Notes under the pieces: generated by a model
Told to the model about the DNA's origin: nothing
Seen by the model: only the letters and a program-made list of their open reading frames with translations
The model's database searches: none
Shown: in pieces, positions 41,219 to 59,906 of the stretch
How the letters are laid out: each line of letters opens with the position of its first letter
Numbering within the stretch: position 1 is the first letter of the stretch
Source: Chloroflexota bacterium
Lineage (GTDB): Bacteria > Chloroflexota > Dehalococcoidia > Lucifugimonadales > UBA3495
Length of the DNA stretch: 64,000 nt
Reading direction: 5' to 3'
Assembly (NCBI GenBank): GCA_026710825.1
Contig: JAPOQH010000098.1
Coordinates: 1-64,000, forward strand
Translations under genes and position numbers: made by a program

Positions 41219-41243
41219 ATCGGTCACTCCAGCGACGGGTTGC

Positions 41244-42698: not shown

Positions 42699-42744
42699 CG
42701 TGGTTCCTCCTCTGGCGGATTTCGCCGGATTATTGATACCGGAT

Positions 42745-43155: not shown

Positions 43156-43168
43156 CGCTCGGCTCTCC

Positions 43169-44299
43169 TTACCTGGCGCAATCCGTTACCAGTTCATCGA
43201 TCATCTCCCGCGTCACGTGCGGCATCGTGATGATGTGAGCGATATCCCCTTCCGGCGCGATTTGCCACTTGCGAAACACCTCCGGCCCAGGCCGCTCGAA
43301 CACCACGGTAACTGAATTCTTGTGCCGCCAGGCCGGAATCCCGCGCTCGTTGAATTGACCAACCGCGTATTCGGCCGTGTCCAACATCCCGGCGACCAAC
43401 TTGCGGAACCCCTCGTCACCGTAGTTCGCCAGGGCATACCACATCATCAGCGGACCGATCGCGCTCCGCGAACCCGAAAGCGTCGTGTCCTGCACCCCCA
43501 CCAGTTCGATCGCCCTGCCAACCCGCTCCACGTGCGTTTTCTTGGTTACGACTACTCCGCACGGCAACGGCGCCCCGATCAACTTGTGCCCGCTCACCGA
43601 CACGCTGTCCACGCCAACGTCAAACCCGAACGGCTGCGGATCGTCCACGAACGGCAGGATCATCCCGCTCAGCGCCGCGTCCGCGTGTATGTAATAGTTG
43701 GTTACGGCCAATTCTTCCAGGATGGCGCGTATGCGCACTATGTCGTCCACCGCACCGCGCATCGTCGTCCCGATGGTCGCCATGATCACCGCCGGCACGT
43801 CCCGGTGCACCCTTACCATATCCTGAAGGTCGTCGTAGTCGATCTCGCCGTTCTCCTGCCTCTTGATCATGATGTACCGGGCATTCAACAGGCGAACATT
43901 CTTCAGCACGCTGTAGTGGGTTTCTTCGGAGAAGTAGAATATCGCGTTCGGGTACATCTCCCGGGCCAGGTACAGCCCATACATGTTCCCCTCTGTGCCA
44001 CCCGAGGTCACGTAACCCCACGCTTCGTCCGGAGAGATCCTCAGCAACTCTGCGAACCGGTTGACCACCTCTCGTTCAAATGCATGGGAGTTGCTTCGGT
44101 AGTTGCTGTGGTGAAACGGGTCGCCCACATTGTTGACCGAATAGTTCAGGAACGGCAGCACGGCGGAGAAATCAAAATTCTGATTCGTCGGGTAGCCGAC
44201 CTGCCATTGACCAGCCTCTTCAAGTTCATTCAGCAGTTCGTCCAGTCGTTCCTGTATTGCTGATTGCTCGAGAGCAGAGGTGCCCAGCGTTTCGGTCAT
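43169..44299 (-). CDS. hdc: PLP-dependent histidine decarboxylase
   Basis: A 376-aa fold-type-I group II decarboxylase close to bacterial histidine decarboxylases: VGYPTNQNFDFSAVLPFLNY, SVNNVGDPFHHSNYRSNSHA, WGYVTSGGTEGNMYGLYLAR, FYFSEETHYSVLKNVRLLNA, YIHADAALSGMILPFVDDP and the PLP lysine in SVSGHKLIGAPLPCG. The product would be histamine. Start is the second of two ATGs in a duplicated initiation region (44296-44335). A serine- or other amino-acid decarboxylase activity cannot be excluded. Confidence 0.85.
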   Translation of the reverse strand: MTETLGTSALEQSAIQERLDELLNELEEAGQWQVGYPTNQNFDFSAVLPFLNYSVNNVGDPFHHSNYRSNSHAFEREVVNRFAELLRISPDEAWGYVTSGGTEGNMYGLYLAREMYPNAIFYFSEETHYSVLKNVRLLNARYIMIKRQENGEIDYDDLQDMVRVHRDVPAVIMATIGTTMRGAVDDIVRIRAILEELAVTNYYIHADAALSGMILPFVDDPQPFGFDVGVDSVSVSGHKLIGAPLPCGVVVTKKTHVERVGRAIELVGVQDTTLSGSRSAIGPLMMWYALANYGDEGFRKLVAGMLDTAEYAVGQFNERGIPAWRHKNSVTVVFERPGPEVFRKWQIAPEGDIAHIITMPHVTREMIDELVTDCAR

Positions 44300-44319
44300 G
44301 TCTTCGTATCCTCGGTCAT
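44296..44319 (-). CDS. Seven-codon leader ORF overlapping the histidine decarboxylase start
   Basis: A 20-nt tandem duplication at 44296-44335 copies the ribosome binding site and start codon of hdc. The upstream copy opens MTEDTKT and stops at a TGA that overlaps the hdc ATG (ATGA). Its own GAGGAA is about 8 nt upstream. Could couple translation of hdc, or be a neutral duplication. Confidence 0.4.
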   Translation of the reverse strand: MTEDTKT

Positions 44320-44365
44320 GTCTTCGTTTCCTCAGACGTCATCGGTCGTCGAAAACGCATGCGGA

Positions 44366-44394
44366 TTGCCGCCGTCGCAAGGGTATGCTATACC
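44366..44394 (+). promoter_or_regulatory. Sigma70-type promoter of the alpha/beta hydrolase gene
   Basis: TTGCCG (44366-44371), 17-nt spacer, TATACC (44389-44394); start of transcription near 44401, about 24 nt before the ATG. Confidence 0.55.
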
Positions 44395-44424
44395 GGCACA
44401 AACCGCAATCAGCGGAGGTCACTC

Positions 44425-45237
44425 ATGCCCACCATCCAACGCGGCGATGCCCAACTCCACTACTACCTCGACGACTTCACCGATCCGTGGCGTACGTCCC
44501 GCGACGCCATCGTGCTCCAGCACGGTTTCTCCCGAAACGGCAACTTCTGGTACAACTGGCCGCCCCTGCTCAGCCGCGAGTACCGCGTCATACGGCCCGA
44601 TATGCGCGGCATGGGCCTGTCGACAATCGACCCAGACCGCTACGAACCCACCCTCGACACCCTCATGGGCGACCTGCTCGCCATCCTCGACGACGCTGGC
44701 GCAGAGCGCGTCGTGTACGTAGGCGAGTCGTTCGGCGGCATCATGGGCATGCAATTCGCCCACGATCACCCCGACCGGTGCCGCGCCCTCGTGTTGTGCA
44801 ATTCTCCCTGCCGCCTCACCCGCCGCGAAAACTCCACCCCCGGCGGAAGCTGGCTCGCCACCATGGAACAGGGAGGCATCGGCGCCTGGTCCGCCGCCAC
44901 CATCAACTTCCGTCTCGACATGCGCCACGCCGCCGAAGGTCTGAAGGACTGGTATATCGCCGAGATGGACAAAACACCCGGTGAAATCGGGCAGGCCCTG
45001 CACAGCTACCTGGACAGTCTCGACTTCGGCCCCCACCTCAAGGACATCTCGGTCCCAACCCTGTTGCTGACCGGCGACGAATCCCTCACCACCAGCATGG
45101 AACAGCAGGAGTTCATGGCCGCCGAAATCCCCAACAGCCGGCTCGTCACGTGGCCCGGTCTCGGCCACGGCGTCAACGTCATCTACCCCGAGTGGTGCGT
45201 TGACCGGATGCGCGAGTTCCTCGGCGAAACGGCGTAA
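44425..45237 (+). CDS. Alpha/beta-fold hydrolase
   Basis: A 270-aa esterase/hydrolase: oxyanion region IVLQHGFSRNGNFWYNWPPL, DMRGMGLSTIDP, nucleophile Ser in VYVGESFGGIMGMQ (GxSxG), acid Asp in LLTGDESL and His in WPGLGHGVNVIYPE. No signal peptide. GGAGGTCACTC directly precedes the ATG. Divergent from histidine decarboxylase. Substrate unknown; lactonase, esterase or C-C hydrolase are all possible. Confidence 0.9.
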   Translation: MPTIQRGDAQLHYYLDDFTDPWRTSRDAIVLQHGFSRNGNFWYNWPPLLSREYRVIRPDMRGMGLSTIDPDRYEPTLDTLMGDLLAILDDAGAERVVYVGESFGGIMGMQFAHDHPDRCRALVLCNSPCRLTRRENSTPGGSWLATMEQGGIGAWSAATINFRLDMRHAAEGLKDWYIAEMDKTPGEIGQALHSYLDSLDFGPHLKDISVPTLLLTGDESLTTSMEQQEFMAAEIPNSRLVTWPGLGHGVNVIYPEWCVDRMREFLGETA

Positions 45238-45267
45238 CCGGTCAGGCCGGCTGCGTCATCTCCGTGC

Positions 45268-46338
45268 CTACCAGCCGGAGTTGCGCTCGGCCCAGCGTTT
45301 TTGCGCCTTCTCCAGGTTGATCCGCGTGAGATCGTCGTGCGGATCAATCAGCATCGCCTGCTCGAAATCAGCAATCGCCTTCGGATCGTCTCCGAGGCAG
45401 AAAAAGGCGTACCCGCGGCCGTTGTAGGCGTCTGCGAACTCCCGGTCCAGCGAAATCGCGCGGTTGAAGTCGTTGATCGCCCGCTCGAACTCGCCCATGT
45501 GGCCCCACGTCAGCGCGCGGTGATACCACGCCTCAACATGCTCACGGTTGAGGCTGATCGCTTTCCCGAAACTGGTGATTGCCGTCTGGAAATCACCCTG
45601 CTGTCGGGATGACACGCCCCGCTGAATCAGGGCGTCCATCTGATCGCCGCCATCGATACCATACGCCGGTGGTGCAGGCGTCGCCGCTGGCTCGGATGCC
45701 GTGTATCGAGCGGCCGCCTGCGTTGGTTCCCGGTCCGCGTACTGTGGAGCCGCCGGCGCCGGTTCCCGCTCTGCGTACTGCGATGCGGTCGGCGTTGGTT
45801 CGGGTGCTGCGTATTGTGGCTCCGGTGACACAGGACGCGATGTCGGTGCCTGTGCTGCCGGTTCGCGTTCCCCGGTCGTTCGCGTCGCCGTGGACTCCGC
45901 CGATCCGTACCGTGTGCGGCGCAACCGGTCTTTGGCCCGGCTCACCCGGTCTCCCTCATTCCTGGCTCCGACCCCTATCAACAGCCGCTCGATGGAATCC
46001 AGCGCCCGGTCGAGGTCATCCTCATTGAAAGTATCCATGTGAGCCCATCGGTTGCGCGTTTCCCGAAGCTCGGATACCAAGCTCCGTTCGTATGATCCAA
46101 GGTGGTCGCGAAACACGTCGTTCCAGCCGCTGACCATCACTTTCAACATCATCGCCACGTCACCCTCGACGTCGCCGTAGATGTCCGCGTCGTCGGGCAC
46201 GTACTGCCCCCTGCCCGCCGCTTCCCGCAGCATGCGGGTCACGTATGGGCCAAGGCCGACCCCCAGCAGTTGAAGGGCATTCCCAACCAGGCTGTGGTTA
46301 TTGGACTTGGTGGTGTTGCTGTTCTTGGTAGTCGTCAT
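45268..46338 (-). CDS. Swt1-like HEPN domain + Pro/Ala repeat linker + TPR protein
   Basis: A 356-aa protein. Residues about 15-125 (GNALQLLGVGLGPYVTRMLR, WNDVFRDHLGSYERSLVSEL, RETRNRWAHMDTF) match the Swt1-type HEPN domain, including the RxxxxH motif (R95-NRWA-H100), a possible RNase site or inactive remnant. Residues 175-222 are four 12-residue repeats of the type QYAEREPAPAAP. Residues about 235-345 hold three TPR units (GVSSRQQGDFQTAITSFGKA, ALTWGHMGEFERAINDFNRA, GYAFFCLGDDPKAIADFEQA). HEPN plus TPR suggests an RNA-targeting or protein-complex role. Confidence 0.72.
   Translation of the reverse strand: MTTTKNSNTTKSNNHSLVGNALQLLGVGLGPYVTRMLREAAGRGQYVPDDADIYGDVEGDVAMMLKVMVSGWNDVFRDHLGSYERSLVSELRETRNRWAHMDTFNEDDLDRALDSIERLLIGVGARNEGDRVSRAKDRLRRTRYGSAESTATRTTGEREPAAQAPTSRPVSPEPQYAAPEPTPTASQYAEREPAPAAPQYADREPTQAAARYTASEPAATPAPPAYGIDGGDQMDALIQRGVSSRQQGDFQTAITSFGKAISLNREHVEAWYHRALTWGHMGEFERAINDFNRAISLDREFADAYNGRGYAFFCLGDDPKAIADFEQAMLIDPHDDLTRINLEKAQKRWAERNSGW
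45673..45816 (-). repeat. Four 36-bp coding repeats in the HEPN-TPR gene
   Basis: Encodes QYAAPEPTPTAS, QYAEREPAPAAP, QYADREPTQAAA and RYTASEPAATPA: an exact 12-codon period with diverged copies. Confidence 0.75.
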
Positions 46339-46483
46339 ACGAGCATCCCTGCCGCAGGCGTGCGGCTGTACGTAAGTGCCGTCGATAGCCGCGAGACGGT
46401 TTTACTCACGCCCACCGTAGCACATACGCCGCACCGCCCGCCGTGGCATGGACGTGCGATTTCTGCGATTTGATGGCAAGTTT

Positions 46484-47077
46484 TCAGGCCGTCGGCTGGA
46501 TGCCAAGTTCGGCCTGCATGTCTGCCACTGCCTGGTTGCGCGTCTTGCGCTGCCACTGCGGCCGCGCGTTGATCGGCTCGTTGGTGATCTCCGGGGCAAT
46601 CTTCAACGCCACGAACAACGGCCCCGGCTGTCCCCGGATCTCCTCGATCTGGCTCGCGAAATCTTCCAGGTTGTCAATCGCATACGTCGCCGGATACCCG
46701 CAACCCTTCGCAACGACCTCGTATTCCATCTGCTCTGCGTTCGGCACCGGCTGGCCACCGGTCGTCGCGTACACGCCGTTGTCCAGCATGAAATGGTACA
46801 GATTCGACGGCGCTTTCTCCGCGATCGTGGGCAGCGCCCCCATCCCCATCAGCACGTCCCCTTCCGAGTCAAACAGCACCACTCGCTGCTCCGGCATGGA
46901 CAGAGCCAACCCCAACGCGAACGACGCGTGGCCGCCCATCGCCGGGTCGCCCAACGGGAGGTCCCGGTCCGGTTGGTCGCTCAATTCCACCCAGAACCTG
47001 CCGCCGCGCCCCGGTATCACCACCGCGTCCCCGCGATGCTGCTTGAAGATCTCCAGCATTTCCGCCGTCTTCATCAT
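46484..47077 (-). CDS. ThDP-dependent decarboxylase, C-terminal (ThDP-binding) subunit; ComE/sulfopyruvate decarboxylase-like
   Basis: About 197 aa, the PP half of a split 2-oxo-acid decarboxylase: DPAMGGHASFALGLALSMPE, the ThDP/Mg motif FDSEGDVLMGMGALPTIA, and FMLDNGVYATTGGQPVPNAE. Its partner, the PYR half, is encoded 127 nt upstream (47205-47714). Split enzymes of this kind include sulfopyruvate decarboxylase (ComDE) and phosphonopyruvate decarboxylase. AGGA precedes the ATG at 47077; a GTG at 47086 is also possible. Substrate cannot be fixed from sequence. Confidence 0.82.
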   Translation of the reverse strand: MMKTAEMLEIFKQHRGDAVVIPGRGGRFWVELSDQPDRDLPLGDPAMGGHASFALGLALSMPEQRVVLFDSEGDVLMGMGALPTIAEKAPSNLYHFMLDNGVYATTGGQPVPNAEQMEYEVVAKGCGYPATYAIDNLEDFASQIEEIRGQPGPLFVALKIAPEITNEPINARPQWQRKTRNQAVADMQAELGIQPTA

Positions 47078-47098
47078 GTCAATCACTTCCTGAGTAAC

Positions 47099-47134
47099 AT
47101 CCCCTCTCCCGCCAGGGGAGAAGGTGAGGGGGAT
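47099..47134. repeat. REP-like palindrome
   Basis: ATCCCCTC (47099-47106) with GAGGGGGAT (47126-47134), and inside it TCTCCC/GGGAGA around a 5-nt loop. Same theme as 33856-33945. Located between the two decarboxylase subunit genes. Confidence 0.55.
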
Positions 47135-47204
47135 CCCTCGCGGAAAGAACTCGGTTCTATCGTCTCGGAATCCCGTTCATCCTGTGTGTCGATGTGCTGA
47201 GCCG

Positions 47205-47714
47205 TTAGCGGCTGACGTTGAACCCGTGGTACTCGTCGCCCACCAGCACGGCCACCGGCTTCTTGTTCCGTTGCGCTTCTTCAAACGCAATGGAAATCCG
47301 GTCCGCGTCCTCGTCTGATTCGACCAGGTAATAGTTGATGTTGAAGGCGTGCAGGAACCGCTCCGTGTAAAACGCCGCGGTGTCGGTGATCACGCCGTGC
47401 CGCGTCCATCCGCGATACCCCACCATCATCACCACCGGCACATTCATCCCGAGCGCCCAGCCGCGCAGCGAGTCCCCTGACTCCATCATGCCCGTGTTCT
47501 GGATGAGGATCACCGGCTTCTTGCCGCCTGCCGCAAGCCCAGCCGCCGTCGAGAATGCATGCCCCTCGCGGCTCACCGGCACCAGGTCAAGGCTATCGTC
47601 CTCGCTCATCAGCACGTACAGAAAATTCGTCTCGCTGTCCGGCAGCCACACCACGTGGGTCGCGCCGTTTTTCTTCAGCTGCTCCAGCACCGTCGCCGGA
47701 CTCAATTCGGCCAT
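47205..47714 (-). CDS. ThDP-dependent decarboxylase, N-terminal (PYR) subunit; ComD-like
   Basis: A 169-aa PYR-domain subunit: THVVWLPDSETNFLYVLMSE, the catalytic Glu in LVPVSREGHAFSTAAGLAAG, then KPVILIQNTGMMESGDSLRG and NVPVVMMVGYRGWTRHG, as in the alpha subunit of sulfopyruvate/phosphonopyruvate decarboxylases. It needs the ThDP-binding partner at 46484-47077 to be active. AGGTG precedes the ATG. Confidence 0.82.
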   Translation of the reverse strand: MAELSPATVLEQLKKNGATHVVWLPDSETNFLYVLMSEDDSLDLVPVSREGHAFSTAAGLAAGGKKPVILIQNTGMMESGDSLRGWALGMNVPVVMMVGYRGWTRHGVITDTAAFYTERFLHAFNINYYLVESDEDADRISIAFEEAQRNKKPVAVLVGDEYHGFNVSR

Positions 47715-48121
47715 GGGGACACCTGCCTTGTTGCGATCGCTAAGTTTGCAGCGTTCGACCCAGTCGAAAGCCGAACAAGGATATACCCACCCAAGTACGA
47801 GCCGTCAACCGCCACCCGTCAATCGTAGACGGGGAAGCTTGAGGGCGCCGTTATCTGCCGCAACCGTCATACCGGCGGAAGCCGGTATCCAGGACAGCCT
47901 TGCCCCGAACATGCTGGCTTTCCGGCAGAGTCTCTCGGGTTCCGTTGCATCCGGGTTTGCCCTGTTCACACGCTCGGGGCCAACAGCTTCGTCGTGCTTC
48001 CTCCACTCACGGTTTTCGCTCCACCCTCGGCATGGGTTGGAAACGCGGACAGTGAATGTCAAATTGGCTATGTTTTCTGCGTCGTGGCCTTTCTGTAATA
48101 CGCGGAATCCAGAAGAATCGA
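47715..48121. other. Intergenic region with a REP-type hairpin
   Basis: About 400 nt without a credible gene. It contains the hairpin at 47869-47888 and the flanking GTCATACC...TATCCAGG context known from dispersed palindromic repeats. It separates the nitrile-hydratase-like operon from the decarboxylase genes and should hold the promoter of the latter. Confidence 0.5.
47869..47888. repeat. REP-type hairpin ATACCGGC-GGAA-GCCGGTAT
   Basis: Perfect 8-bp stem with a GGAA loop, in the wider context CGTCATACCGG...CCGGTATCCAGG. This closely resembles the widespread family of intergenic palindromes (CATTCCCGCGAAAGCGGGAATCC) found in many bacteria. Confidence 0.7.
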
Positions 48122-48736
48122 CTACGGCGCCAACGCCTCCGACACTCCGACCATGCTGTCGCGGGTCACCAGCCGTGCCAACTCCTCCTCGCTCATCCCT
48201 TCCGTTCCCTCCGGCCGGCGCGGCAACACCAGGTAACGCATGTCAGCGGTGCTGTCCAGCACGTCCACTTGCATATCGGACGCCACCGCTGTCCCGAATT
48301 CAGCCATCACACCCCGCGGGTCGCTCACCGCCCGCGACCGGTAGGCCAGGCTCTTGTACCAGTCCGGCGGGCGACCCAACAGCATCCGCGGGTAGCAGGA
48401 ACACAGCGTGCATACCACCAGGTGATGCACCTCCTCAGTGTTCTCCACCACCGTCAGATGCGGCGTATCCTCCGAGATCCGAATCCCCATCTCGCCAAGC
48501 GCGGAACGCGTGTCGGAGAGCAAACGAGCCTTGAAATCGGGATCGACCCACGCCCGGGCCACAACCTTCGCCCCGTCCGCCGGAGTCCTCCGGTCCATCA
48601 GGTCAACCTGCCTTTGCACCTCATCCGCAGTCAGAAGTCCTTTTTCTGCCAGGAGCGCTTCGATGGCAACAGAGCGCAGGGCGACCTCGCTCATCGGCTG
48701 GTCGTGTACGTGGTCTTCAACGTGGGTAGTCGTCAT
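48122..48736 (-). CDS. Nitrile hydratase alpha / thiocyanate hydrolase gamma-like subunit (Co-type claw)
   Basis: A 204-aa metal-binding subunit. The claw C109-T-L-C112-S-C114 in VVCTLCSCYP has Thr at the second place, the cobalt-type pattern; Cys112 and Cys114 would be oxidised post-translationally. The flanks fit the family: KVVARAWVDPDFKARLLSD, RPPDWYKSLAYRSRAVSDPR and MAEFG. Nitrile hydratases turn nitriles into amides; thiocyanate hydrolase makes COS. Its beta counterpart is split over two genes about 2.5 kb upstream in the same run. No separate activator gene is seen nearby. GGGGAGAG precedes the ATG. Confidence 0.9.
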   Translation of the reverse strand: MTTTHVEDHVHDQPMSEVALRSVAIEALLAEKGLLTADEVQRQVDLMDRRTPADGAKVVARAWVDPDFKARLLSDTRSALGEMGIRISEDTPHLTVVENTEEVHHLVVCTLCSCYPRMLLGRPPDWYKSLAYRSRAVSDPRGVMAEFGTAVASDMQVDVLDSTADMRYLVLPRRPEGTEGMSEEELARLVTRDSMVGVSEALAP

Positions 48737-48821
48737 AAGTCTCTCCCCAAAGTTCCAAACGGAGCGGCTGTGGGTCTGAACCGATTGTGCCGGCGAACGA
48801 TCACCATCGGAAACAAAACCC

Positions 48822-49925
48822 CTAGTTGTGGCATCCCCGCGCCTCTATCTCCCAAACCGCCTCCACCATCCCGTCGCGTATCCCGATGAAGCGATCCCAG
48901 CGGCTGACCATGGCATCCTGCTGGCCGGGAAGCAGAATTACCTGGTCCCCAACCGCCAGTTCAACGCCATCCGCCACTTGAAACACGGTGCGGTCGGTGT
49001 CCATGTCAACGGCTTCGACCCCCGGTCTGCCTTCCACCCGTGGCAGCCCCTTGATCCCGCATACCGCCCGCGCTCCCGCGTCGCCAATCGCCGTGCCCGG
49101 GCGTGGGACGCTGATGATGGTACTTAACACCTTGCCAGCAAACTCAAAGTCCTGCATGTAGTCGTAAGAGGTTTCCATCACCAGGTACGAACCACCCTGG
49201 ATTTCGGTAACCTCCGGCATATCCCCGGCGATATCGTAGCTCCAGGTTTCGCCCGTGGATACGATTTCCACCGGCAGCCCGTCGGCAATCATGGCCTCAC
49301 GAAGGTCGAGAACCGGCTGTATCAGGCGGTGCGCCTCGGTGGCCCGGTCCTCGCGGTCTGACGAAACTTCGGACATCATCTGGTGGCTCATCACGCCTTT
49401 CAGGGAGAGCCCCGGTAGCGAGTCGATCGCCCTGGCCAGCGCAATGCCGGGCTCCACTTCCTGCACCCCGCACCGCAGCAACCCGGTCTCCTGCTCGATG
49501 ACCACGCCCAGGTCAACGCCTCGGGCGGTGGCAGCTTCGGAAAGCACACGGGCATTGGCCTCGTTTTCGCATGCCACCAGGATCTCGGCCTGGTCCGCCA
49601 GCGCGCAGAGCCGCGCAATCTTCGCTGGCGCAACCACCTCGCTGGTGACGAAAACGCTGGGCACTCCGCCCTGCACCATCACCTCAGCCTCGGCAACCTT
49701 GGCGGCGCACACCCCGCCGACCGTCCCTCCGCGCTCGATCTGCCGCAGCGCGATGGCGGGACTCTTGTGGTTCTTGCTGTGACCACGCAGCTTGCTGTGC
49801 CGGTCGCTGTAGAAATCGGCGATCACATCCATGTTGTGATCCAGCGCGTCCATGTCCAGGATCAGGCATGGAGTATCCAGTTCCTGCATCGGGGTGCCGG
49901 GTTGGGGTTCATATGCTTGCTGCAT
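48822..49925 (-). CDS. Fold-III PLP enzyme, D-threonine aldolase/D-serine dehydratase-like, lysine kept
   Basis: About 367 aa with an alanine-racemase-type barrel: ELDTPCLILDMDALDHNMDV, the PLP motif RGHSKNHKSPAIALRQI (K51; family form RPHxKTHK), GLRCGVQEVEPGIALARAI-like barrel strands and GDAGARAVCGIKGLPRV. The C-terminal metal pair of the family (P-x-H-x-C/D) reads PGQQD, so the His is Gln and one acidic ligand remains. GGAGGTACGTCC precedes the ATG at 49925. It lies between its paralog and the nitrile hydratase alpha gene in one operon. Confidence 0.85.
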   Translation of the reverse strand: MQQAYEPQPGTPMQELDTPCLILDMDALDHNMDVIADFYSDRHSKLRGHSKNHKSPAIALRQIERGGTVGGVCAAKVAEAEVMVQGGVPSVFVTSEVVAPAKIARLCALADQAEILVACENEANARVLSEAATARGVDLGVVIEQETGLLRCGVQEVEPGIALARAIDSLPGLSLKGVMSHQMMSEVSSDREDRATEAHRLIQPVLDLREAMIADGLPVEIVSTGETWSYDIAGDMPEVTEIQGGSYLVMETSYDYMQDFEFAGKVLSTIISVPRPGTAIGDAGARAVCGIKGLPRVEGRPGVEAVDMDTDRTVFQVADGVELAVGDQVILLPGQQDAMVSRWDRFIGIRDGMVEAVWEIEARGCHN

Positions 49926-50003
49926 GGACGTACCTCCGAGCTTCTCGCACATCTAATAGAATCTTGCCGTGAATTCTGACCATAAAATCGCCGACAGGTA
50001 GCC

Positions 50004-51176
50004 CTACACCAGTTGTCCCCGGCCTGCAACCCGCCAATACCCGACCAGCTTGCCATCCCTTACCGCGCGAATGTAGTCATACTGGTTGACGCACAGGGCC
50101 AGGTTGTACGGAACGAGGCGGACTTTGTCGTTGGGCATCAACTGCTCGGTGGCCGGCCCCTCCAGATCCAGGATTCCGTGCTCAGCGCTGAACCTGGACG
50201 CGACGGCGCTCGGGAATGCCTCCAGGACCGGCACCCCGAAATCAGGCCCGGTGGTCTTGTGACCGGCGTCCACCACTGCCCTGCCCTCTACCGGATGGCT
50301 GATAACCGTGGCCAGGATCTTGGCCGCAGGCTGAAATTCCTGGCGAATTCGCAGGGTCTCCACGTCCATCAGGGGATACACCCCGGCCTGAACCTCGGTT
50401 ATGCCCGACATCTGCGCGACCACGTCATAGCTGTAGGTGCTGCCCGCGCTAACCGTCGCAACCTCGATACCGGCCTGTTCCAGGGCGCTTCGCGTGTCCA
50501 GTACGGGTTGCAACCGACGGCCGGTCTCTGCCGACAACTCGTCGCGGTCGGTCATGGCTAACGGCCCCTCATAGGTCATTATCCCTTTGAACGACAAACC
50601 GGCGGCGTCCCTGACCTTCCGCGCCAGGTCGACCGCGTCGTTCCCTGGTTCTACACCGCCAAACCCGTAACCGGCGTCAATGTCCACCAATACCCCAACG
50701 GTAACGCCGGCGGTCTGTGCGGCCTCCGCCAGATCCTCGACGTTGCGTACGTTGTCCACGGCCACGCTCAGCGTGATTCGGCCGGCCAAGTCCACCAGCC
50801 GGCGAATCTTGCCGGCGGTAATCACCCGACCAGCTATCAGAATGTCATCAATCGCAGGGGAAATCGACGCGGACCCGTCCACGCCGGCAATATCTCCGCC
50901 GCCGGCAAATGCCTCGGCTTCCCCAAGGGAACTGACCGCCACGCCGCCCGCGCTGTTTGCAGCAGCCAACTGCAACAGGGCGATGTCAGGGCAGCCATGA
51001 CAGGAAACATGAGGCCGAACCTTGACCCCACCGGCCGACGATCCCCCGCCAGGTCCGCCAAAAGCGTTGTGCAGGACCGCGATGTTCTGCTCCATCACCC
51101 CCAGGTCAACCACCAGGGCCGGCGTATCCAATTCCTCGGCGGGGGTGCCAACAGGCTGAATTATCGGTCGCTCCAT
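50004..51176 (-). CDS. D-threonine aldolase-like paralog lacking the PLP lysine
   Basis: A 390-aa paralog of the previous protein: EELDTPALVVDLGVMEQNIA, AAANSAGGVAVSSLGEAEAF, GVLVDIDAGYGFGGVEPGND and AVVDAGHKTTGPDFG. At the cofactor site, where the family has RPHxKTHKCP, it reads RPHVSCHGCPDIA: Ser58 replaces the Schiff-base lysine and Gly61 the second lysine (codons TCC and GGC). The metal pair position reads PYNLA. A Gly/Ser-rich insert (GGPGGGSSAGG) precedes the site. It is probably catalytically altered or a non-catalytic partner. 30 nt downstream of the beta C-domain gene. Confidence 0.85.
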   Translation of the reverse strand: MERPIIQPVGTPAEELDTPALVVDLGVMEQNIAVLHNAFGGPGGGSSAGGVKVRPHVSCHGCPDIALLQLAAANSAGGVAVSSLGEAEAFAGGGDIAGVDGSASISPAIDDILIAGRVITAGKIRRLVDLAGRITLSVAVDNVRNVEDLAEAAQTAGVTVGVLVDIDAGYGFGGVEPGNDAVDLARKVRDAAGLSFKGIMTYEGPLAMTDRDELSAETGRRLQPVLDTRSALEQAGIEVATVSAGSTYSYDVVAQMSGITEVQAGVYPLMDVETLRIRQEFQPAAKILATVISHPVEGRAVVDAGHKTTGPDFGVPVLEAFPSAVASRFSAEHGILDLEGPATEQLMPNDKVRLVPYNLALCVNQYDYIRAVRDGKLVGYWRVAGRGQLV

Positions 51177-51206
51177 TCCTCACGTACCTCTCAGTTTTTG
51201 CGCCGG

Positions 51207-51509
51207 TCAGGCGGCTTCGAGCCAGTGCTGGTACACGTCCACCAACAGCGTATCGGCGGGATTCCCCGCGTATTCCGGCCACAGGTCCGTCTGCCGCAGC
51301 CGCACCCGGTATAGCGGCTGACGCGGCAGCCCGTCGCCCCCGTGCGCCAGCGATTCGGGGTTGGGATAAACCCCGCACAGCGCGTCCACCACACCCACGT
51401 GCCCCTGTATGTAGGCGGGCGTCCGGAAGTGATGCGCCGGCGATTCGACCCGCACCCGCACGGCGCTCCCGTCTTCAAATCGCACTGGTTCAGCGGCAGC
51501 GATCGTCAC
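51207..51509 (-). CDS. Nitrile hydratase beta-like, C-terminal SH3-type domain as a separate protein
   Basis: A 100-aa protein equal to the C-terminal barrel of nitrile hydratase beta: RFEDGSAVRVRVESPAHHFR, TPAYIQGHVGVVDALCGVYP and LYRVRLRQTDLWPEY. The family's HTRxPRYxRG signature reads HFRTPAYIQG, so two of three arginines are replaced. GTG start overlaps the stop of the beta N-terminal gene (GTGA). Splitting of beta in two is known for thiocyanate hydrolase and toyocamycin nitrile hydratase. Confidence 0.82.
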   Translation of the reverse strand: MTIAAAEPVRFEDGSAVRVRVESPAHHFRTPAYIQGHVGVVDALCGVYPNPESLAHGGDGLPRQPLYRVRLRQTDLWPEYAGNPADTLLVDVYQHWLEAA

Positions 51510-51808
51510 AAGCCCTGCTCCCGCAGTTGCGCCGCTTTGGCGTCAATCTCCTGAGCCGTGAGAACTCCCTTCTCGATCAGCAGGATCTCCAAAGCCGCGG
51601 TCCACTTTTCGTAGTACGACAGGGACTCGTACTGATCCGGCGGCAGACTCTCGATCGCCCGCCGCATCTCGTCCGTGGTGCGTATCCCCTGCGCTCCCAA
51701 CACTTGGTGCACGGCATCGACACGCCGCTCCCAGTCGCTGTATTCGTGCTCGGTGAGGTCAATCGGGGTGTCGTCGGGCCACCCGCCGCGGTCATGTACT
51801 CCCGGCAT
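51506..51808 (-). CDS. Nitrile hydratase beta-like, N-terminal domain as a separate protein
   Basis: A 100-aa protein with the beta-subunit opening MPGVHDRGGWPDDTP (family MxGxHDxGG), then YSDWERRVDAVHQVLGAQGI, TDEMRRAIESLPPDQYESLS and YYEKWTAALEILLIEKGVLT, all standard for beta N-domains. The Arg of the DEMRRAIE helix is kept. It starts 3 nt after the deacetylase stop and overlaps the C-domain gene by 4 nt. Confidence 0.88.
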   Translation of the reverse strand: MPGVHDRGGWPDDTPIDLTEHEYSDWERRVDAVHQVLGAQGIRTTDEMRRAIESLPPDQYESLSYYEKWTAALEILLIEKGVLTAQEIDAKAAQLREQGL

Positions 51809-51811
51809 ATA

Positions 51812-52630
51812 TTAAGCTCCCTTGTCCCACATGTCGGCCACATCCACAGCGCGCATGAACTCCACGCCTGGGAACGTCTTGATGTATTCGATCAACCGCT
51901 CCAGCATCAGCAGCCGCCCGGGCCTGCCTATATACTGCGGATGCATCGTCAGGTTGAAGCACCGCCCGTACCGGTAGATTCCCCGAAATTCCGCCGCCCA
52001 GCTATCGAACACCTCATCGGGATTCCGCATCGGCCCCAGCCGGTTCGCCGACGGCGCGTACGCAAAGTGCGGAGCGTCGTCCAGCAGCCAGTGTATCGGC
52101 AACTCAACCATCTGGCGCGGCGGGTCTCCACCTTCCACGAAGTAAGGCGCGTCATCCCCCATCAGGCTGCTGTCGTACCGGAAGTTGTGCTTCGCCAGCA
52201 GGTCCAGGGACACCGCGCTCAATTCCCAACTCGGCGACCGGTACCCAACCGGCGCCCGCCCCGTCAGGTCTCCCAGGATCCCAATCCCTTTGATCAGGAC
52301 CTCTTCCTCCTCCTCGTGCGTCATGGTCGCGGGAGGCTCGTGCAAATAGCCGTGGTGCGCAATTTCGTGGCCCCGCCCGTCAATCTCCCGCACCAGGTCC
52401 GTGTGAGTTTCCGCCACCTGTCCGGGAATATAGAAGCTCGCTTTGATCCCCTGCGCGTCCAGCATGTCGAGGATGCGCGGCGTCGCGACGCTCGGCCCGT
52501 ACTCCGCCATCGACAGCAGGCTCGGGTAGTTGATGAAATCAGCGTTCCGCCGCAGCCACGACGAAACCCCGTCCACATCAAACGTGATCAGCGCGACGCA
52601 TCGAATGTCGTTTGGCCAGATGCCGGCCAT
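51812..52630 (-). CDS. Polysaccharide deacetylase (PuuE/HpPgdA-type)
   Basis: A 272-aa NodB-fold hydrolase without signal peptide: VALITFDVDGVSSWL (D-D pair for base and metal), KASFYIPGQVAETH, GHEIAHHGYLHEPP (metal His), APVGYRSPSWELSAVS and the late FNLTMHPQYIGRPGRL. This cytoplasmic subgroup includes allantoinase PuuE and other C-N hydrolases, so here a small-molecule amidase is as likely as a sugar deacetylase. It directly precedes the nitrile-hydratase-like genes; GAGGAG precedes the ATG. Confidence 0.88.
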   Translation of the reverse strand: MAGIWPNDIRCVALITFDVDGVSSWLRRNADFINYPSLLSMAEYGPSVATPRILDMLDAQGIKASFYIPGQVAETHTDLVREIDGRGHEIAHHGYLHEPPATMTHEEEEEVLIKGIGILGDLTGRAPVGYRSPSWELSAVSLDLLAKHNFRYDSSLMGDDAPYFVEGGDPPRQMVELPIHWLLDDAPHFAYAPSANRLGPMRNPDEVFDSWAAEFRGIYRYGRCFNLTMHPQYIGRPGRLLMLERLIEYIKTFPGVEFMRAVDVADMWDKGA

Positions 52631-52662
52631 ATTTCTCCTCTCGGGATGCGGCTGGACGCGGG

Positions 52663-53943
52663 TTACGAGGATGGAATCCGGTCAAAACCCGTGTAAGGAC
52701 GCAGTGCCTCTGGAATCACCACCGATCCGTCCGGCTGCTGGTAATTCTCCAATATGGCGATGATAACTCGCGGCAGCGCCAGCCCTGAGCCGTTCAGCGT
52801 GTGCACGAAGCGCGGTCGCTCACCTACTCCAGGACGGTAACGGATGTTGGATCTGCGCGCCTGGAAGTCTGTGCAGTTGGAACAGGACGATACCTCCAAC
52901 CACTCCTGCGACCCGGCGGCCCAAACCTCTATGTCGTACGACTTGGCGGACGGAAACGATATGTCCCCCGCGCAAAGTTGCAGAATCCGGTACGGCAGCC
53001 CAAGACGCTGGCAAACCGTTTCTGCGTTGCCCAGCAGCTTTTCGAGTTCATCAAACGACGTGTCCGGTTCAACAAACTTGTACATCTCAACCTTGTTGAA
53101 CTGGTGCACCCGCTTGATCCCCCGCGTGTCCCGTCCTGCCGCGGCCTTCTCACGCCGGAAGCACGGCGTATGCGCCACGTAATACAGCGGCAACTCGTCT
53201 GCCGACAGGATCTCATCCCGGTGTAGGTTCGTCACCGGCACCTCTGCCGTGGGGATCAGCCAGAGGTCATCCTCCTCGTCGTGGTACAGGTTTTCCGCGA
53301 ACAGCGGCAGGTTGCCCGATCCTTCCATGATCTCGCGGCGCACCAGGATTGGGAGGGCCACCTCGGTGTACCCGTGCTCCCCGCCGTGCAGGTCCAGCAT
53401 CCACGAGATGATCGCCCGCTCCAGCCGCGCCCCATACCCGTTCAGCGTGTAGAACCGACTCCCCGACAGCTTGACCCCCCGCTGGAAATCAATGATCCCC
53501 AACTGCTCAGCGATATCCCAGTGCGGCAGGGCCTCGAAGTCCAGGGCAGCGGGCTCTCCCCAGTGGCGCAGCACCTGGTTGCACGTCTCGTCCAACCCGT
53601 CCGGCGTGCTGATATCGGGCAGGTTCGGCAGCGCCAGCATCGCGTCGTTCATGCGGGCATCCAGGTCCCGCACTTCGTCCTCAAGCGCGCCGATCTGCCC
53701 ACCGACCTTGCGCATCTGGGCGATGATGTCGTCGGACGGCGCGCCGCCTTGCGAGCGTGCCTGCCCGATCTCCCGGGACACCTGGTTGCGACGGGAGCGC
53801 AGTTCGTCTCCCTCGGTGATGGCGACACGTCGGCGCGCGTCCATGGCGAGGATTTCGTCGAGGCAATCATCGTCCTCGGCGCGCCGAATCAGGGCAGCGC
53901 GGACGGCTTCGGTCTCAGTGCGGATCTGTTCGATGGAAAGCAT
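52663..53943 (-). CDS. serS: Seryl-tRNA synthetase
   Basis: A class II synthetase of about 426 aa: the N-terminal coiled-coil arm (residues about 25-105), GYTEVALPILVRREIMEGSG, the motif 2 block LYYVAHTPCFRREKAAAGRD and TRGIKRVHQFNKVEMYKF, SYDIEVWAAGSQEWLEVSSC and motif 3 NGSGLALPRVIIAILENYQ. ATG at 53943; a GTG four codons upstream is an alternative. Between the Uma2-type gene (12 nt) and the deacetylase (32 nt), all on one strand. Confidence 0.97.
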   Translation of the reverse strand: MLSIEQIRTETEAVRAALIRRAEDDDCLDEILAMDARRRVAITEGDELRSRRNQVSREIGQARSQGGAPSDDIIAQMRKVGGQIGALEDEVRDLDARMNDAMLALPNLPDISTPDGLDETCNQVLRHWGEPAALDFEALPHWDIAEQLGIIDFQRGVKLSGSRFYTLNGYGARLERAIISWMLDLHGGEHGYTEVALPILVRREIMEGSGNLPLFAENLYHDEEDDLWLIPTAEVPVTNLHRDEILSADELPLYYVAHTPCFRREKAAAGRDTRGIKRVHQFNKVEMYKFVEPDTSFDELEKLLGNAETVCQRLGLPYRILQLCAGDISFPSAKSYDIEVWAAGSQEWLEVSSCSNCTDFQARRSNIRYRPGVGERPRFVHTLNGSGLALPRVIIAILENYQQPDGSVVIPEALRPYTGFDRIPSS

Positions 53944-53955
53944 GTGGTGAAACAC

Positions 53956-54648
53956 TCAGTTCAAATCAAAAATTAGCTCGCGCACCGCGAACGTGAAACC
54001 TGGGAGCACCTCTTCGCCGTCCAGGGTTTCCGGTTCGGTGAGCAGTTCCGGCTCATCAACACCGGCGCGATAAACACGCACCGTCCGCTCCATGGGATCG
54101 ATCAGCCAACCCAGCCGTGCCCCATTCTCCATGTACTCCCGCATCTTCTCCAATAGATGGTCGATCGAAGACGGGGCGTCGGACCGCGCTTCTGCTATGA
54201 AATCAGGACAGAACGGCCAGGTTCTGGGAGGTTCGCTGCGCGGTGGCACGATATTTTCATTTGGGGTCCATGCCGCATCCGGGCCGCGTATGGCGCCATT
54301 ACTCATGAAATACGCGGCGGAGGGCCCTGTGGTCATGCCGGGATTATCATTCGCTATGTTCCAGGTTTCAACTGCATACACCAGGCGGAATTCCCGCCTC
54401 TCCCCGTACGCATAGGTCGGCATTAATTCCAGCTCCCCGGATCCGTTCAACTCAATAGACCACGGCCGATCCTGGTTGGCCGTGCATACCTCCCAGAACC
54501 AGTCTTCGCAGGCGGCGACGCCTTCCGCGATTGCCGAATCGGGCAGCCGGAGCGCGACCGGGAATAGCCTCTCCGTTTCATCGATGACGGAGGCTGCCTT
54601 CGTTATCCCGGTGGCATCGGGCTTCGACGTTGTTGAAATCGTCGTCAT
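53956..54648 (-). CDS. Uma2-family PD-(D/E)XK protein (DUF820)
   Basis: About 230 aa. The Uma2 pattern is visible: GPDAAWTPNENI (acidic D after strand), WPFCPDFIAEARSDAPSSID (E-x-R in place of E-x-K) and HLLEKMREYMENGARLGWLI followed by DP. These PD-(D/E)XK-fold proteins are abundant in Cyanobacteria and Chloroflexota; their role is unknown. TTG at 54657 overlaps the lysS stop; ATG at 54648 is the alternative adopted here. Inserted between lysS and serS. Confidence 0.8.
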   Translation of the reverse strand: MTTISTTSKPDATGITKAASVIDETERLFPVALRLPDSAIAEGVAACEDWFWEVCTANQDRPWSIELNGSGELELMPTYAYGERREFRLVYAVETWNIANDNPGMTTGPSAAYFMSNGAIRGPDAAWTPNENIVPPRSEPPRTWPFCPDFIAEARSDAPSSIDHLLEKMREYMENGARLGWLIDPMERTVRVYRAGVDEPELLTEPETLDGEEVLPGFTFAVRELIFDLN

Positions 54649-54653
54649 CGTTG

Positions 54654-56303
54654 TCAACTTGATGGATCGTCCTGGAGGTTGCGCGGCCCTTCCGCCGCCA
54701 ACTCCGGCGCAGACAAACTCACGTCCGCCGTGATGGTCAATGTCCGCATCTGCGGAAATAGTAGCACATCGCGGATCGTCGCCTGCCCCGTCAGCAGCAT
54801 CACCAACCTGTCAATTCCAATCCCGAGCCCCCCCGTCGGCGGCATCCCGTACTCCAGCGCGGTCAGGAAATCCATGTCCGTGCGGTCCGCCTCCTCGTCG
54901 CCGTACGCATCCCGTTGGTGCTCCTGGTCGGCGAACCGCGCCCGTTGTACTTCAGGGTCATTCAACTCCGTGTACGAGTTGGCGATCTCCATCCCCGCGG
55001 CGAAAGCCTCGAAACGCTCCACATATCCCGGCCTGTCGGGGTGTCCCTTCGCCAACGGAGACATATCCTCCGGATAATCCATCAGGAACGACGGTTGCAC
55101 CAGGTGCGGCTCCACGTACACCGACAACATCTTGTCGATCAGCCTGCCGCGCGCCTCCCGAGGACCCGGCTGCAACCCCAGGTCCAGGCACACCCGCGTC
55201 AGCGATTCGGAATCAGGGAAGTCCTCAATGTCGATGCCGCTACGTTTCTGCAATTCCTCCCGCAGCGACAGGCGCGGCCACGGCGGCGTGAAATCGATCA
55301 TCTCGTCGCCCATCGCTACCGACATGGATCCGTGGATATCCTGCGCCAACGACGACACCAGCGATTCCACCATCTCCATCACAACGTTGTAGTCAGCGTA
55401 CGCTTCGTACGATTCCAGCAGCGTGAACTCGGGGTTGTGGTCCTGGTCTATGCCCTCATTTCGAAACACGCGCCCAATCTCGTACACCTTGTCCAGCCCG
55501 CCCACTATCAACCGCTTGAGGTACAACTCCGTCGCGATGCGCAGGTAAAGCTGTTCGTCCAGCGCGTTGTGATGCGTGATAAACGGACGCGCGTGCGCCC
55601 CCGCCGGAATCGGCACCAGTATCGGCGTGTCCACCTCCACGAACCCCCGCCTGTCCAGGAACCGCCGGATCCCGCTGATTATGCGGCTCCGCTGCACGAA
55701 CGTCTCGGACACCTCCGGGTTGGCGATCAGGTCCAGGTATCGCTGCCGGTAGCGAGTCTCCACGTCCCGCAACCCGTGCCATTTCTCCGGAAGCGGCCGC
55801 ATCCCCTTGGCCAGCAGGGTCAGCGAGCGCGCCTCGATGGTGGGCTGGCCCGTCCGCGTCCGTATCATGTTGCCGGTCACACCCAGGAAATCCCCCAGGT
55901 CAAGATCTTGCAACGTCTCGTATTCGTCCCCCAGCACGTTCTGTCGCAACATGGCCTGCACCACGCCTGATGCGTCCCGCAGGTCGAGGAAGGCCGCACG
56001 TCCCATCACGCGCATGGAAACGATGCGTCCGGCCAAGCTCAGGTTTTCAACCGCCTCCGGCGCGTCCGCCGATTCCGCCGCCTCGAATTGCTCGATGGCC
56101 TCGGTCGCCGTGCAACTGCGTTCAAAACGCGGCGGATACGGATCAACCCCGCGCTGCCGGATGCGGTGCAGCTTCAGCCTGCGGCTCTCCAGGTTGGCCT
56201 CCAGGCTCCCCAGGTTTTCCGTGTCGCCGGAATCAGTGTTCCCGGAGTCGGTATTCTGTGAATCGGTCGGTACGTTTGCTTCAGGCACGGCGATTTCGCA
56301 CAA
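54654..56303 (-). CDS. lysS: Lysyl-tRNA synthetase, class II
   Basis: A 549-aa class II synthetase: OB-fold anticodon domain (LAGRIVSMRVMGRAAFLDLR), motif 1 RGFVEVDTPILVPIPAGAHA, LRIATELYLKRLIVGGLDKV, motif 2 YEIGRVFRNEGIDQDHNPEF and motif 3 GGLGIGIDRLVMLLTGQATI. The N-terminal 40 residues hold a low-complexity repeat (NTDSGNTDSGDTEN). The first start in frame is a TTG at 56303 without a good ribosome binding site; a GTG at 56288 is an alternative. It may head a long transcript reaching the nitrile hydratase alpha gene. Confidence 0.96.
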   Translation of the reverse strand: MCEIAVPEANVPTDSQNTDSGNTDSGDTENLGSLEANLESRRLKLHRIRQRGVDPYPPRFERSCTATEAIEQFEAAESADAPEAVENLSLAGRIVSMRVMGRAAFLDLRDASGVVQAMLRQNVLGDEYETLQDLDLGDFLGVTGNMIRTRTGQPTIEARSLTLLAKGMRPLPEKWHGLRDVETRYRQRYLDLIANPEVSETFVQRSRIISGIRRFLDRRGFVEVDTPILVPIPAGAHARPFITHHNALDEQLYLRIATELYLKRLIVGGLDKVYEIGRVFRNEGIDQDHNPEFTLLESYEAYADYNVVMEMVESLVSSLAQDIHGSMSVAMGDEMIDFTPPWPRLSLREELQKRSGIDIEDFPDSESLTRVCLDLGLQPGPREARGRLIDKMLSVYVEPHLVQPSFLMDYPEDMSPLAKGHPDRPGYVERFEAFAAGMEIANSYTELNDPEVQRARFADQEHQRDAYGDEEADRTDMDFLTALEYGMPPTGGLGIGIDRLVMLLTGQATIRDVLLFPQMRTLTITADVSLSAPELAAEGPRNLQDDPSS

Positions 56304-56436
56304 GTTGCGGGGCGTGTCGGGATGAATGGCAATTCGGATTCAACGAATATTTATCGTAAGCGGGCGCTTTGGGAATGTAAAGGAAACTCGCTAAATCATG
56401 TCATATTTTTGATAGTGGTCACATTCCTCACTTGAC

Positions 56437-56442
56437 TATAAT
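56437..56442 (+). promoter_or_regulatory. Candidate -10 box (TATAAT) before the YIP1 gene
   Basis: Consensus TATAAT 62 nt upstream of the ATG at 56504, in an AT-rich divergent region (56304-56503) between lysS and the YIP1 gene. TTGATA occurs upstream but at 22 nt, longer than usual. Confidence 0.4.
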
Positions 56443-56503
56443 GACCCACCACTTGGTGTGGCGAATCCATCATCTACACCTATACGGCCACTGAGGTGAG
56501 AAT

Positions 56504-57103
56504 ATGATCCAGAGAATGATCGGTGCGGCGTTTTTCAACCGCCAAACCTACGAGGAGATCGAACAAGACCAGGGAGCCTTGGGCCAGGCGATCGGCGTTG
56601 TCCTGCTGGTTACGCTGTGCGGAGTCGTCGGAGGCGTGATCGGCGGACTGATGCAGGGTTCCGCTGTGCTCGGCATCCTGTTCGGAATAATCGGCGGCTT
56701 GGTGTTCGGCATCATCCGCTGGGCCCTGTGGGTCTCGGTCATGTACTTGGTTGGCGGCAAGATGCTCAGGACCGGCGACACGCAGACCAGTTGGGGCGAA
56801 TTGGGTCGTGTGATGGGCTTCGCCTATACGCCGGGCGTCTTGTCCGTGTTGTCGTTCATACCTGGCATTGGCGGCCTGTTCCCTGTCATCGGCTTTTGCT
56901 GGACCTTGGCCGCCGTGACCGTGGCGGTCCGTCAGGCGATGGATTTTGAATCCACCGGACGAGCGATTGGCGTGGTGTTGCTGTCCGCAGTGATCGGCTT
57001 CATCCCGTGGGTGATCATATGGGCGATTCAATTGGCGATTCTCGGCGGACCGGAAGCGCCGCCGGTCGAAAGCGCGATCCGGAACCTGATGTCCGTCATC
57101 TGA
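56504..57103 (+). CDS. YIP1-family membrane protein
   Basis: A 199-aa protein with five hydrophobic helices (GQAIGVVLLVTLCGVVGGVI, LGILFGIIGGLVFGIIRWAL, LGRVMGFAYTPGVLSVLSFI, VIGFCWTLAAVTVAVRQAMD, GVVLLSAVIGFIPWVIIWAI) and the YIP1 elements MYLVGGKML and FAYTPGVLS. Bacterial members have no firm function. GAGGTGAGAAT precedes the ATG; the cyclo-ligase gene starts 6 nt downstream. Confidence 0.85.
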   Translation: MIQRMIGAAFFNRQTYEEIEQDQGALGQAIGVVLLVTLCGVVGGVIGGLMQGSAVLGILFGIIGGLVFGIIRWALWVSVMYLVGGKMLRTGDTQTSWGELGRVMGFAYTPGVLSVLSFIPGIGGLFPVIGFCWTLAAVTVAVRQAMDFESTGRAIGVVLLSAVIGFIPWVIIWAIQLAILGGPEAPPVESAIRNLMSVI

Positions 57104-57109
57104 TCCAAC

Positions 57110-57835: not shown

Positions 57836-57867
57836 CCCGTAACCCACGCTTCCCATGACCGATATCG

Positions 57868-57889
57868 GCCCCACTTTCAATGGTGGGGT
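57868..57889. terminator. Hairpin after the cyclo-ligase gene, weak terminator
   Basis: CCCCAC (57869-57874) pairs with GTGGGG (57883-57888) around an 8-nt loop; no T-run follows. A TATAAT at 57911-57916 shortly downstream may drive the next gene. Confidence 0.35.
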
Positions 57890-57910
57890 CGATTCGTTTC
57901 GGCGTGTGTG

Positions 57911-57916
57911 TATAAT
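57911..57916 (+). promoter_or_regulatory. Candidate -10 box (TATAAT) of the gene at 57983
   Basis: TATAAT 67 nt upstream of the ATG at 57983; the -35 region at the right distance is poor. Confidence 0.4.
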
Positions 57917-57982
57917 CTGGACATAATCGACGTTCGGACCCCGGTTGACGTCGAATCACCCGCAAAACAGGAAGGAGGAATC

Positions 57983-59835: not shown

Positions 59836-59906
59836 CCGTGCATCTTCCGGAGTCTCAGTGGTCGAGGTACAGGTTCATTGCTCACATTCTTGCCGTCGTC
59901 GGCCTG

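Follow-up and report, generated by a model that had tools for sequence, protein, structure and literature searches.

The stretch analysed here, which we call the window, comprises 64,000 nucleotides (nt) from a Chloroflexota bacterium (contig JAPOQH010000098.1), and its minus strand carries, between positions 48122 and 52630, a run of six genes in the order deacetylase, betaN, betaC, PLP2, PLP1 and alpha. On balance we favour the reading that this operon encodes a cobalt-type nitrile hydratase (NHase) in three pieces, an obligate heterodimer of two proteins related to pyridoxal phosphate (PLP) enzymes, PLP1 and PLP2, and a hydrolase of the NodB fold. In the operon, PLP2 has lost the lysine that would hold the cofactor and PLP1 has changed the residues that would face its partner, a complementary loss that would leave one live site in a mixed pair. 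The source genome (3.86 Mb, 137 contigs, completeness 91.67%) holds one NHase alpha. The features are as follows:

51812..52630, minus strand: NodB/CE4-fold hydrolase of the polysaccharide deacetylase family, 272 aa, with an FDVD ... HHGYLH pattern
51506..51808, minus strand: betaN, the NHase beta N-terminal domain as a separate protein, 100 aa
51207..51509, minus strand: betaC, the NHase beta C-terminal domain as a separate protein, 100 aa; its first 4 nt overlap the end of betaN
50004..51176, minus strand: PLP2, of the D-threonine-aldolase fold; PLP lysine and metal site lost, partner-facing K, E and H kept
51003..51005, minus strand: codon of PLP2 Ser58, at the position of the Schiff-base lysine (Lys59 of AxDTA), in the motif HVSCHGC
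48822..49925, minus strand: PLP1, the putative catalytic half, of the D-threonine-aldolase fold; 367 aa from the ATG at 49925, frame open to 49952
48822..49925, minus strand: within PLP1, the lysine for PLP remains, Gln stands at the place of the metal His, and the residues of the partner-facing loops differ
49773..49775, minus strand: codon of PLP1 Lys51, the Schiff-base lysine (HSKNHK)
49933..49937, minus strand: GGAGG, likely the ribosome-binding site of PLP1
48122..48736, minus strand: alpha subunit of a Co-type nitrile hydratase, 204 aa
48395..48412, minus strand: CTLCSC, the metal claw (residues 109-114 of alpha); YPR comes next, where fused-beta enzymes have YPW

All six open reading frames (ORFs) are present on the strand and in the order that an initial annotation of the sequence had given, and its gaps of 3, -4, 30, 78 and 85 nt hold with the ATG at 49925 as the start of PLP1; an alternative, longer PLP1 frame from 49952 gives a gap of 51 nt. 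Along the operon the Pfam matches are Polysacc_deac_1, NHase_beta_N, NHase_beta_C, Ala_racemase_N with D-ser_dehydrat in each of the two PLP-fold proteins, and NHase_alpha, in agreement with the annotated three-piece enzyme of the NHase family; the annotated claw is found in alpha as VCTLCSC. The annotation had also staked its proposal on the gene order being conserved in some relative, and it is. An alpha-based scan of named genomes gave 71 loci, nine of which (L048-L054, L056 and L109), in addition to the window, show the six-gene order. The nine records are all titled Chloroflexota, Chloroflexi, Dehalococcoidia or SAR202, titles that suggest an uncultured SAR202-type bacterium as the host of the window too, and alpha is 80-89% identical among the six-gene loci. 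Because the order recurs in these loci and the mean ratio of nonsynonymous to synonymous substitution rates (dN/dS) is low, at 0.06-0.16 across the six genes (10 loci; 45 pairs per gene, 43 for betaN), the arrangement is not a product of chance. Promoter and terminator scans of positions 46400-57000 gave matches at chance level only, and an Rfam scan of 40000-60000 gave none.

Both PLP1 and PLP2 belong to the family of D-threonine aldolase, BhcC and D-serine dehydratase, PLP enzymes of fold III, and share its fold; neither reaches the BhcC equivalog cut-off of 690 bits (PLP1 248.8, PLP2 197.8). The annotated pair of alanine-racemase-fold PLP proteins was therefore right as to fold, but PLP chemistry does not hold for PLP2, whose PLP lysine is lost. 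In AxDTA, whose numbering we use for the sites below, the barrel side of the active site comprises Lys59, Arg157, Tyr187, Thr233, Gln249, Gly251, Ser252, Tyr260 and the metal ligands His347 and Asp349, and the site is also built from loops 295-298 and 319-323 of the second protomer (PMC4401734). PLP1 of all 10 operon loci keeps K59, R157, T233, Q249, G251, S252, Y260 and D349, with the changes Y187H, H347Q, K297R, E322D and H323R. PLP2 of the same loci (10/10) carries K59S, R157F, S252V, Y260T, H347N and D349A, and keeps K297, E322 and H323. In the 19 best homologues fetched from the phylum and in three solved enzymes, K59, R157, H347, K297, E322 and H323 are intact.

When all copies are considered, the Schiff-base lysine stands in 32/32 PLP1 and in 0/29 PLP2 (one further PLP2 ends before the site), and partner-facing K297, E322 and H323 are each present in 30/30 PLP2 and in 5, 6 and 14, respectively, of the 32 PLP1. 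The lysine and the three partner-facing residues are kept by 40/40 canonical relatives, a set of best homology matches, two copies from L151 and three solved chains rather than a random draw; the L151 copies scored as PLP1-like and were counted as canonical, and the duplicate L122 was dropped from the site counts. We also ran an unbiased scan of the 59 columns shared by at least 93% of these relatives. The four partner-facing loop columns are kept on average at 100% in PLP2 and 45% in PLP1, and 12 other beta-domain columns at 79% and 73%. The PLP2 barrel is not worn overall; particular residues have been lost, above all K59, K62, R200 and H347. PLP1 is without Y187, G189, G232, D257, H347 and H355 in nearly all copies. 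The mean dN/dS of PLP2, 0.16 (PLP1 0.09), indicates that it is kept by selection, and PLP2 lies upstream of PLP1 on the same strand in 30/30 tandem pairs. The PLP1s form one clade (starred support of 100) and the PLP2s another (starred, 99), each with operon and class-sample pairs, in a tree that excludes the 13 free pairs of the split-set genomes described below and to which a long-branch warning applies.

Since the PLP1 barrel and the PLP2 loops are kept while the PLP2 lysine and the PLP1 loops decay, an obligate heterodimer is suggested, and judging from these residues the pair probably works only as a mixed dimer, with one live and mostly metal-free site. The PLP1 barrel would bind PLP on Lys51 and the loops of PLP2 would close the PLP1 active site; PLP2 itself, incapable of a Schiff base, would serve as a loop donor. 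His347 is found in 2/31 PLP1, 0/30 PLP2 and 40/40 canonical relatives, and Tyr187 has become His in 32/32 PLP1. Because the metal His is gone and a His replaces the PLP-stacking Tyr, we expect a metal-free reaction, likely aldol cleavage or racemisation of a D-amino acid. An engineered alanine racemase performs metal-free aldol cleavage using the His equivalent to Tyr187 (PMC4401734), and the pair, if it is a heterodimer, would be a natural candidate for such retro-aldolase chemistry.

Several observations weigh against an obligate heterodimer. Only 14 of the 32 PLP1 have lost all three partner-facing residues (those of the 10 operon loci, L154, L171, L173 and L181), and a single one, from L149, keeps all three. 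The loop column G295 is kept in both proteins, so that the contrast rests on three columns, and over the 43 barrel columns conservation is much the same in both (75% in PLP1, 71% in PLP2). Barrel-side residues such as G189, G232 and D257 are lost in PLP1 itself, and remnants of the cofactor site survive in some PLP2 (R157 in 9/29, Y187 in 19/30). Two of the 32 PLP1 stand alone, with no adjoining PLP2 (L153:324-1421 and L154:51-1022), each in a genome where a full pair is present as well. Finally, the AlphaFold model of PLP2 is poor, with a mean predicted local distance difference test score of 65, and a fold search with it gave 7dib as the best match, confirming only the D-threonine-aldolase fold.

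Another tandem aldolase pair (G374, L151:7072-9492) was considered as one of the same type and rejected, its two copies keeping the lysine, the metal ligands and the loops. It provides a natural control for the degenerate PLP1/PLP2 pair.

The initial annotation had taken the two PLP-fold genes to mark a pathway dedicated to the NHase, a claim that the distribution of the pair does not support. We searched 18 genomes whose alpha falls in the split set (the group of the alpha tree that holds most NHases with beta divided between two genes) and whose operon is without PLP genes; 15 of them have both beta pieces at the locus, and L055, L067 and L073 lack one or both. The pair is located elsewhere in 13 of these genomes and absent from those of L055, L057, L066, L067 and L075. 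It was also found in tandem in seven further genomes of the class (L145-L150 and L152), five of which (G426, G533, G556, G641 and G654) are without NHase alpha at E 1e-15, a threshold at which 26 of 393 sampled genomes of the class have one; the other two, G305 and G397, do have alpha. The case for a joint pathway of the pair and the NHase is weak, as the pair is so often away from the NHase.

Around the 13 free pairs, the neighbour clusters, named from searches of one or two members each, are class III CoA-transferase (near nine pairs: L169-L173, L175-L177 and L181), enoyl-CoA hydratase (7), methionine synthase (6) and formate-tetrahydrofolate ligase (5). The neighbours searched beside the class-sample pairs differ; examples are a thioredoxin-reductase-like protein, TsaD, a PhyH dioxygenase and GTP cyclohydrolase II. 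The surroundings of the free pairs would fit glycine or one-carbon metabolism, which proves nothing.

A serious rival, to which we grant a substantial though minority share of the probability, is that PLP1 and PLP2 form a real heterodimer that is only a passenger here: it would have entered between betaC and alpha once, in a single ancestor, would share no pathway with the NHase, and would stay for its expression or by chance. The pairs found elsewhere and the pair-bearing genomes without alpha favour it, as do the neighbouring lineage of L057, which has deacetylase-betaN-betaC-alpha and no pair anywhere in its genome, and the betaN/betaC junction, which has also taken up inserted DNA in five of the nine named loci. 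Against it, the position between betaC and alpha has been retained despite the divergence of alpha to 80-89% identity and the uptake of other DNA nearby by some of the loci; this is a weak argument, the loci having been chosen by their order, and the placement of the pair in all 10 operon loci was the selection criterion and so is no test of linkage. Our own proposal is that the PLP pair is a module in its own right in these bacteria, which would have joined the NHase operon in one lineage, and that a common pathway of pair and NHase is possible in the lineage of the window.

The group of deacetylase, betaN, betaC and alpha is found without PLP genes in L057, L059-L062, L064, L068, L070 and L102, in some cases with an extra gene between. 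LysS and SerS often precede this group and flank the operon in several relatives.

The DNA inserted at the betaN/betaC junction in five of the nine six-gene loci measures 1.7-3.4 kb, has a GC content of 0.52-0.58 (about 0.62 in the window) and is probably foreign:

Inserts between betaN and betaC: L049:3523-5232, L051:1722-5135, L052:2975-5056, L053:2860-5220, L056:2650-5325

The L052 insert carries a second copy of roughly the last 97 bases of betaN, as if the element perhaps targeted the junction and brought its own gene end.

A further alternative, which we consider improbable, is that PLP1 and PLP2 are separate homodimers and PLP2 a pseudoenzyme, for example one that binds the nitrile or a metal, or regulates the operon. 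Such a role would be in line with the motif HVSCHGC, which replaces the lysine loop of PLP2 in 10/10 operon loci, with the purifying selection on PLP2, and with the complete set of loop residues in the L149 PLP1. The Cys of the motif is missing, however, in many free pairs, the partner-facing residues are kept in all 30 PLP2, and there would be little reason for loops to persist that reached only a dead site.

Turning to the hydratase, alpha, betaN and betaC belong by sequence to the NHase family. Alpha passes the NHase alpha model TIGR01323 (260.9 bits, cut-off 249.85) and fails TIGR03887, the model for the gamma subunit of thiocyanate hydrolase (SCNase; 193.4 bits, cut-off 291.45), and the closest solved chains are nitrile hydratases, several of them named as cobalt-type. 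The CTLCSC claw, which points to cobalt as the metal, is present in 97/97 alpha rows. The positions that we take to be beta Arg52 and Arg157, following P. thermophila numbering, hold Arg in 44/44 split and 35/35 fused rows. Mutating these residues is said to abolish NHase activity (PMC7587978). An apparent loss of beta Arg52, with Ser in AIESLPP, was rejected: the aligned Arg lies in DEMRRAIE and is kept in the 44 split rows.

The enzyme thus shares with fused-beta Co-type NHases the claw, both arginines and an alpha that passes TIGR01323, but differs from them in that two genes, lying upstream of alpha, encode beta, the activator was not found (see below), and the Trp after CYP is mostly replaced. 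This residue is Trp in 38/38 fused rows and Arg in 31/44 split rows; since Trp has mostly given way to Arg, the pocket may have changed in the split-beta enzymes. By analogy with the toyocamycin nitrile hydratase, alpha, betaN and betaC would assemble into one cobalt enzyme, encoded by three genes, that adds water to a nitrile.

Split beta is, on the evidence of two quick trees, a family trait; these trees carry support from the Shimodaira-Hasegawa-like approximate likelihood ratio test (SH-aLRT) only and do not include SCNase or the toyocamycin enzyme. Of the 44 split rows in the 97-row alpha tree, 41 fall into one set of 45 rows (SH-aLRT 93, below the starred level), the remaining four rows of which have no split or fused label. 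The 81-row beta tree places 41 split rows on one side of a branch with a starred support of 100. The split rows L104, L107 and L090 stand outside the main group in both. As the two trees match, the alpha and beta pieces belong together, where the initial annotation had left room for their coming from unrelated families. The split set contains Chloroflexota; its other members bear record titles such as Rokuibacteriota, Alphaproteobacteria and Streptomyces griseoviridis. Left out before the alpha tree were L001 and L002 (both the window itself), L022 and L047 (contigs equal in length to those of L066 and L105, respectively), L100 (a near-copy of L099) and L115 (a short frame); L105 and L112 are labelled as uncertain, and the identical rows L037 and L093 were both counted as fused.

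It appears quite unlikely that the three pieces make up an SCNase or an enzyme for some comparable small anion. SCNase, too, has Arg after CYP, and the Arg found there in most split rows may make the pocket positive; moreover, SCNase has NHase beta as two proteins next to an alpha-like subunit (2dd4), just as in the operon. The annotated likeness to SCNase stands for this subunit layout, but not for the gamma-subunit model, which alpha fails while passing that for NHase alpha, and the best solved chains are those of nitrile hydratases. No activator above cut-off was found in the split-beta genomes tested, whereas SCNase has P15K, according to a title among the references of PMC3511329. Neither cyanase nor rhodanese is among the 10 window proteins searched, other neighbours not having been searched for them.

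Very unlikely, finally, is that the operon does not degrade a nitrile but makes a nitrile-derived amide natural product, like the toyocamycin nitrile hydratase (TNH, ToyJKL). The latter belongs to a Streptomyces nucleoside pathway, a setting unlike that of the operon and one not known to include PLP-fold genes. Like the operon, TNH has three separate subunits (alpha 21.2, beta 10 and gamma 11.4 kDa, assembled as (alpha beta gamma)2; PMC8574189), and the sizes are similar, but a search of 10 window proteins, which left aside most other neighbours, showed no known biosynthetic core enzyme, and the flanking LysS and SerS of several relatives also argue against it.

Co-NHases are described with an activator gene adjoining the subunit genes (PMC3511329). 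Among 27 genomes chosen by hand, mostly metagenome-assembled genomes (MAGs), a match to the NHase activator model TIGR03889 above its cut-off was found in 9/9 fused-beta and in 0/18 split-beta genomes. A match below the cut-off falls on the genome's own betaN in 16 of the 18 split-beta genomes, and the other two have none; against the activator model betaN scores 23.6 bits (cut-off 46), a weak resemblance. In the window's genome, at 91.67% completeness, a PF21006/NHase_beta_N search returned betaN only, TIGR03889 not having been run on it. Because the split-beta genomes tested lack the usual activator, cobalt loading in split-beta NHase probably dispenses with it; free betaN, given its likeness to the activator, might perhaps have taken over the task. 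The contrast between fused and split enzymes offers a testable case of activator-free cobalt loading, which is of interest for biocatalysis.

The first gene of the operon matches Polysacc_deac_1 with 64.3 bits (cut-off 23.1). Its annotation as a PuuE-type deacetylase is loose, given 78.2 bits against a cut-off of 424.6 for the PuuE model TIGR03212, and the closest solved structures are 3rxz, the best match, and 3qbu. The patterns FD.D and HHGY.H, whose Asp and His residues presumably have a metal role, are kept in 3rxz and in 20 aligned deacetylases (the window and 19 loci, L055 and L064 excluded). This NodB-fold hydrolase would probably cleave an amide or an N-acyl linkage, and the amide made by the hydratase is a possible target. 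A 44% identical deacetylase adjoins a fused-beta NHase in L099 and L100 (Candidatus Binatia and Desulfurellaceae titles).

Compared with the D-threonine aldolase family, the pair differs in that catalytic roles are split over PLP1 and PLP2 and that the metal His is lost in 29/31 PLP1 and 30/30 PLP2. An active subunit with a paralog that has no catalytic residue of its own is found in serine palmitoyltransferase (LCB1/LCB2) and in trypanosome AdoMetDC/prozyme and DHS; these differ from the PLP pair in fold or cofactor. In the open-access literature, with subscription journals mostly uncovered, we found no active/inactive paralog pair of fold III and the D-threonine-aldolase type. A description of the six-gene operon did not turn up there either, which is weak evidence of absence, and in the available texts NHase and polysaccharide deacetylase are named together only in separate passages. 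A 2023 phylogeny of NHase and SCNase treats NHases as two-subunit enzymes, and its available text mentions neither Chloroflexi nor SAR202 (PMC10098168). We suggest only tentatively, and hold it to be rather doubtful, that the pair is the first described fold III PLP enzyme whose active site is divided between a catalytic subunit and an obligate one free of cofactor. It would be a natural D-amino-acid aldolase or racemase working without metal, and in one lineage it would act in series with an activator-free three-piece cobalt NHase, the compound treated being an amino- or hydroxy-nitrile. Should the heterodimer be real, an enzyme of the D-threonine-aldolase type would have become a catalytic subunit with a cofactor-free helper, in 30 tandem pairs.

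Two records of the split set deserve mention. L072, titled as a Klebsiella pneumoniae MAG, has a split-beta NHase, which both trees group with a Rokuibacteriota row, and may be mislabelled or contaminated. A gene near the split NHase of Streptomyces griseoviridis (L096:9832-10920) is, as we read its motif by eye, presumably a cobalt transporter of the NhlF/HoxN type.

Downstream of alpha, the six-gene loci have ORFs on the opposite strand, belonging to cluster c8 directly in six loci and with c8 behind a c28 ORF in L052, L054 and L109. In the window, positions 46484-47714 downstream of alpha encode a two-gene thiamine pyrophosphate (TPP) enzyme akin to sulfopyruvate and phosphonopyruvate decarboxylases, with scores below the cut-offs for those. 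This gene pair was considered as part of the system and rejected, as it was not seen in the fetched flanks of any of the nine six-gene loci. Distant homologues of the TPP-enzyme pair adjoin alpha in L055.

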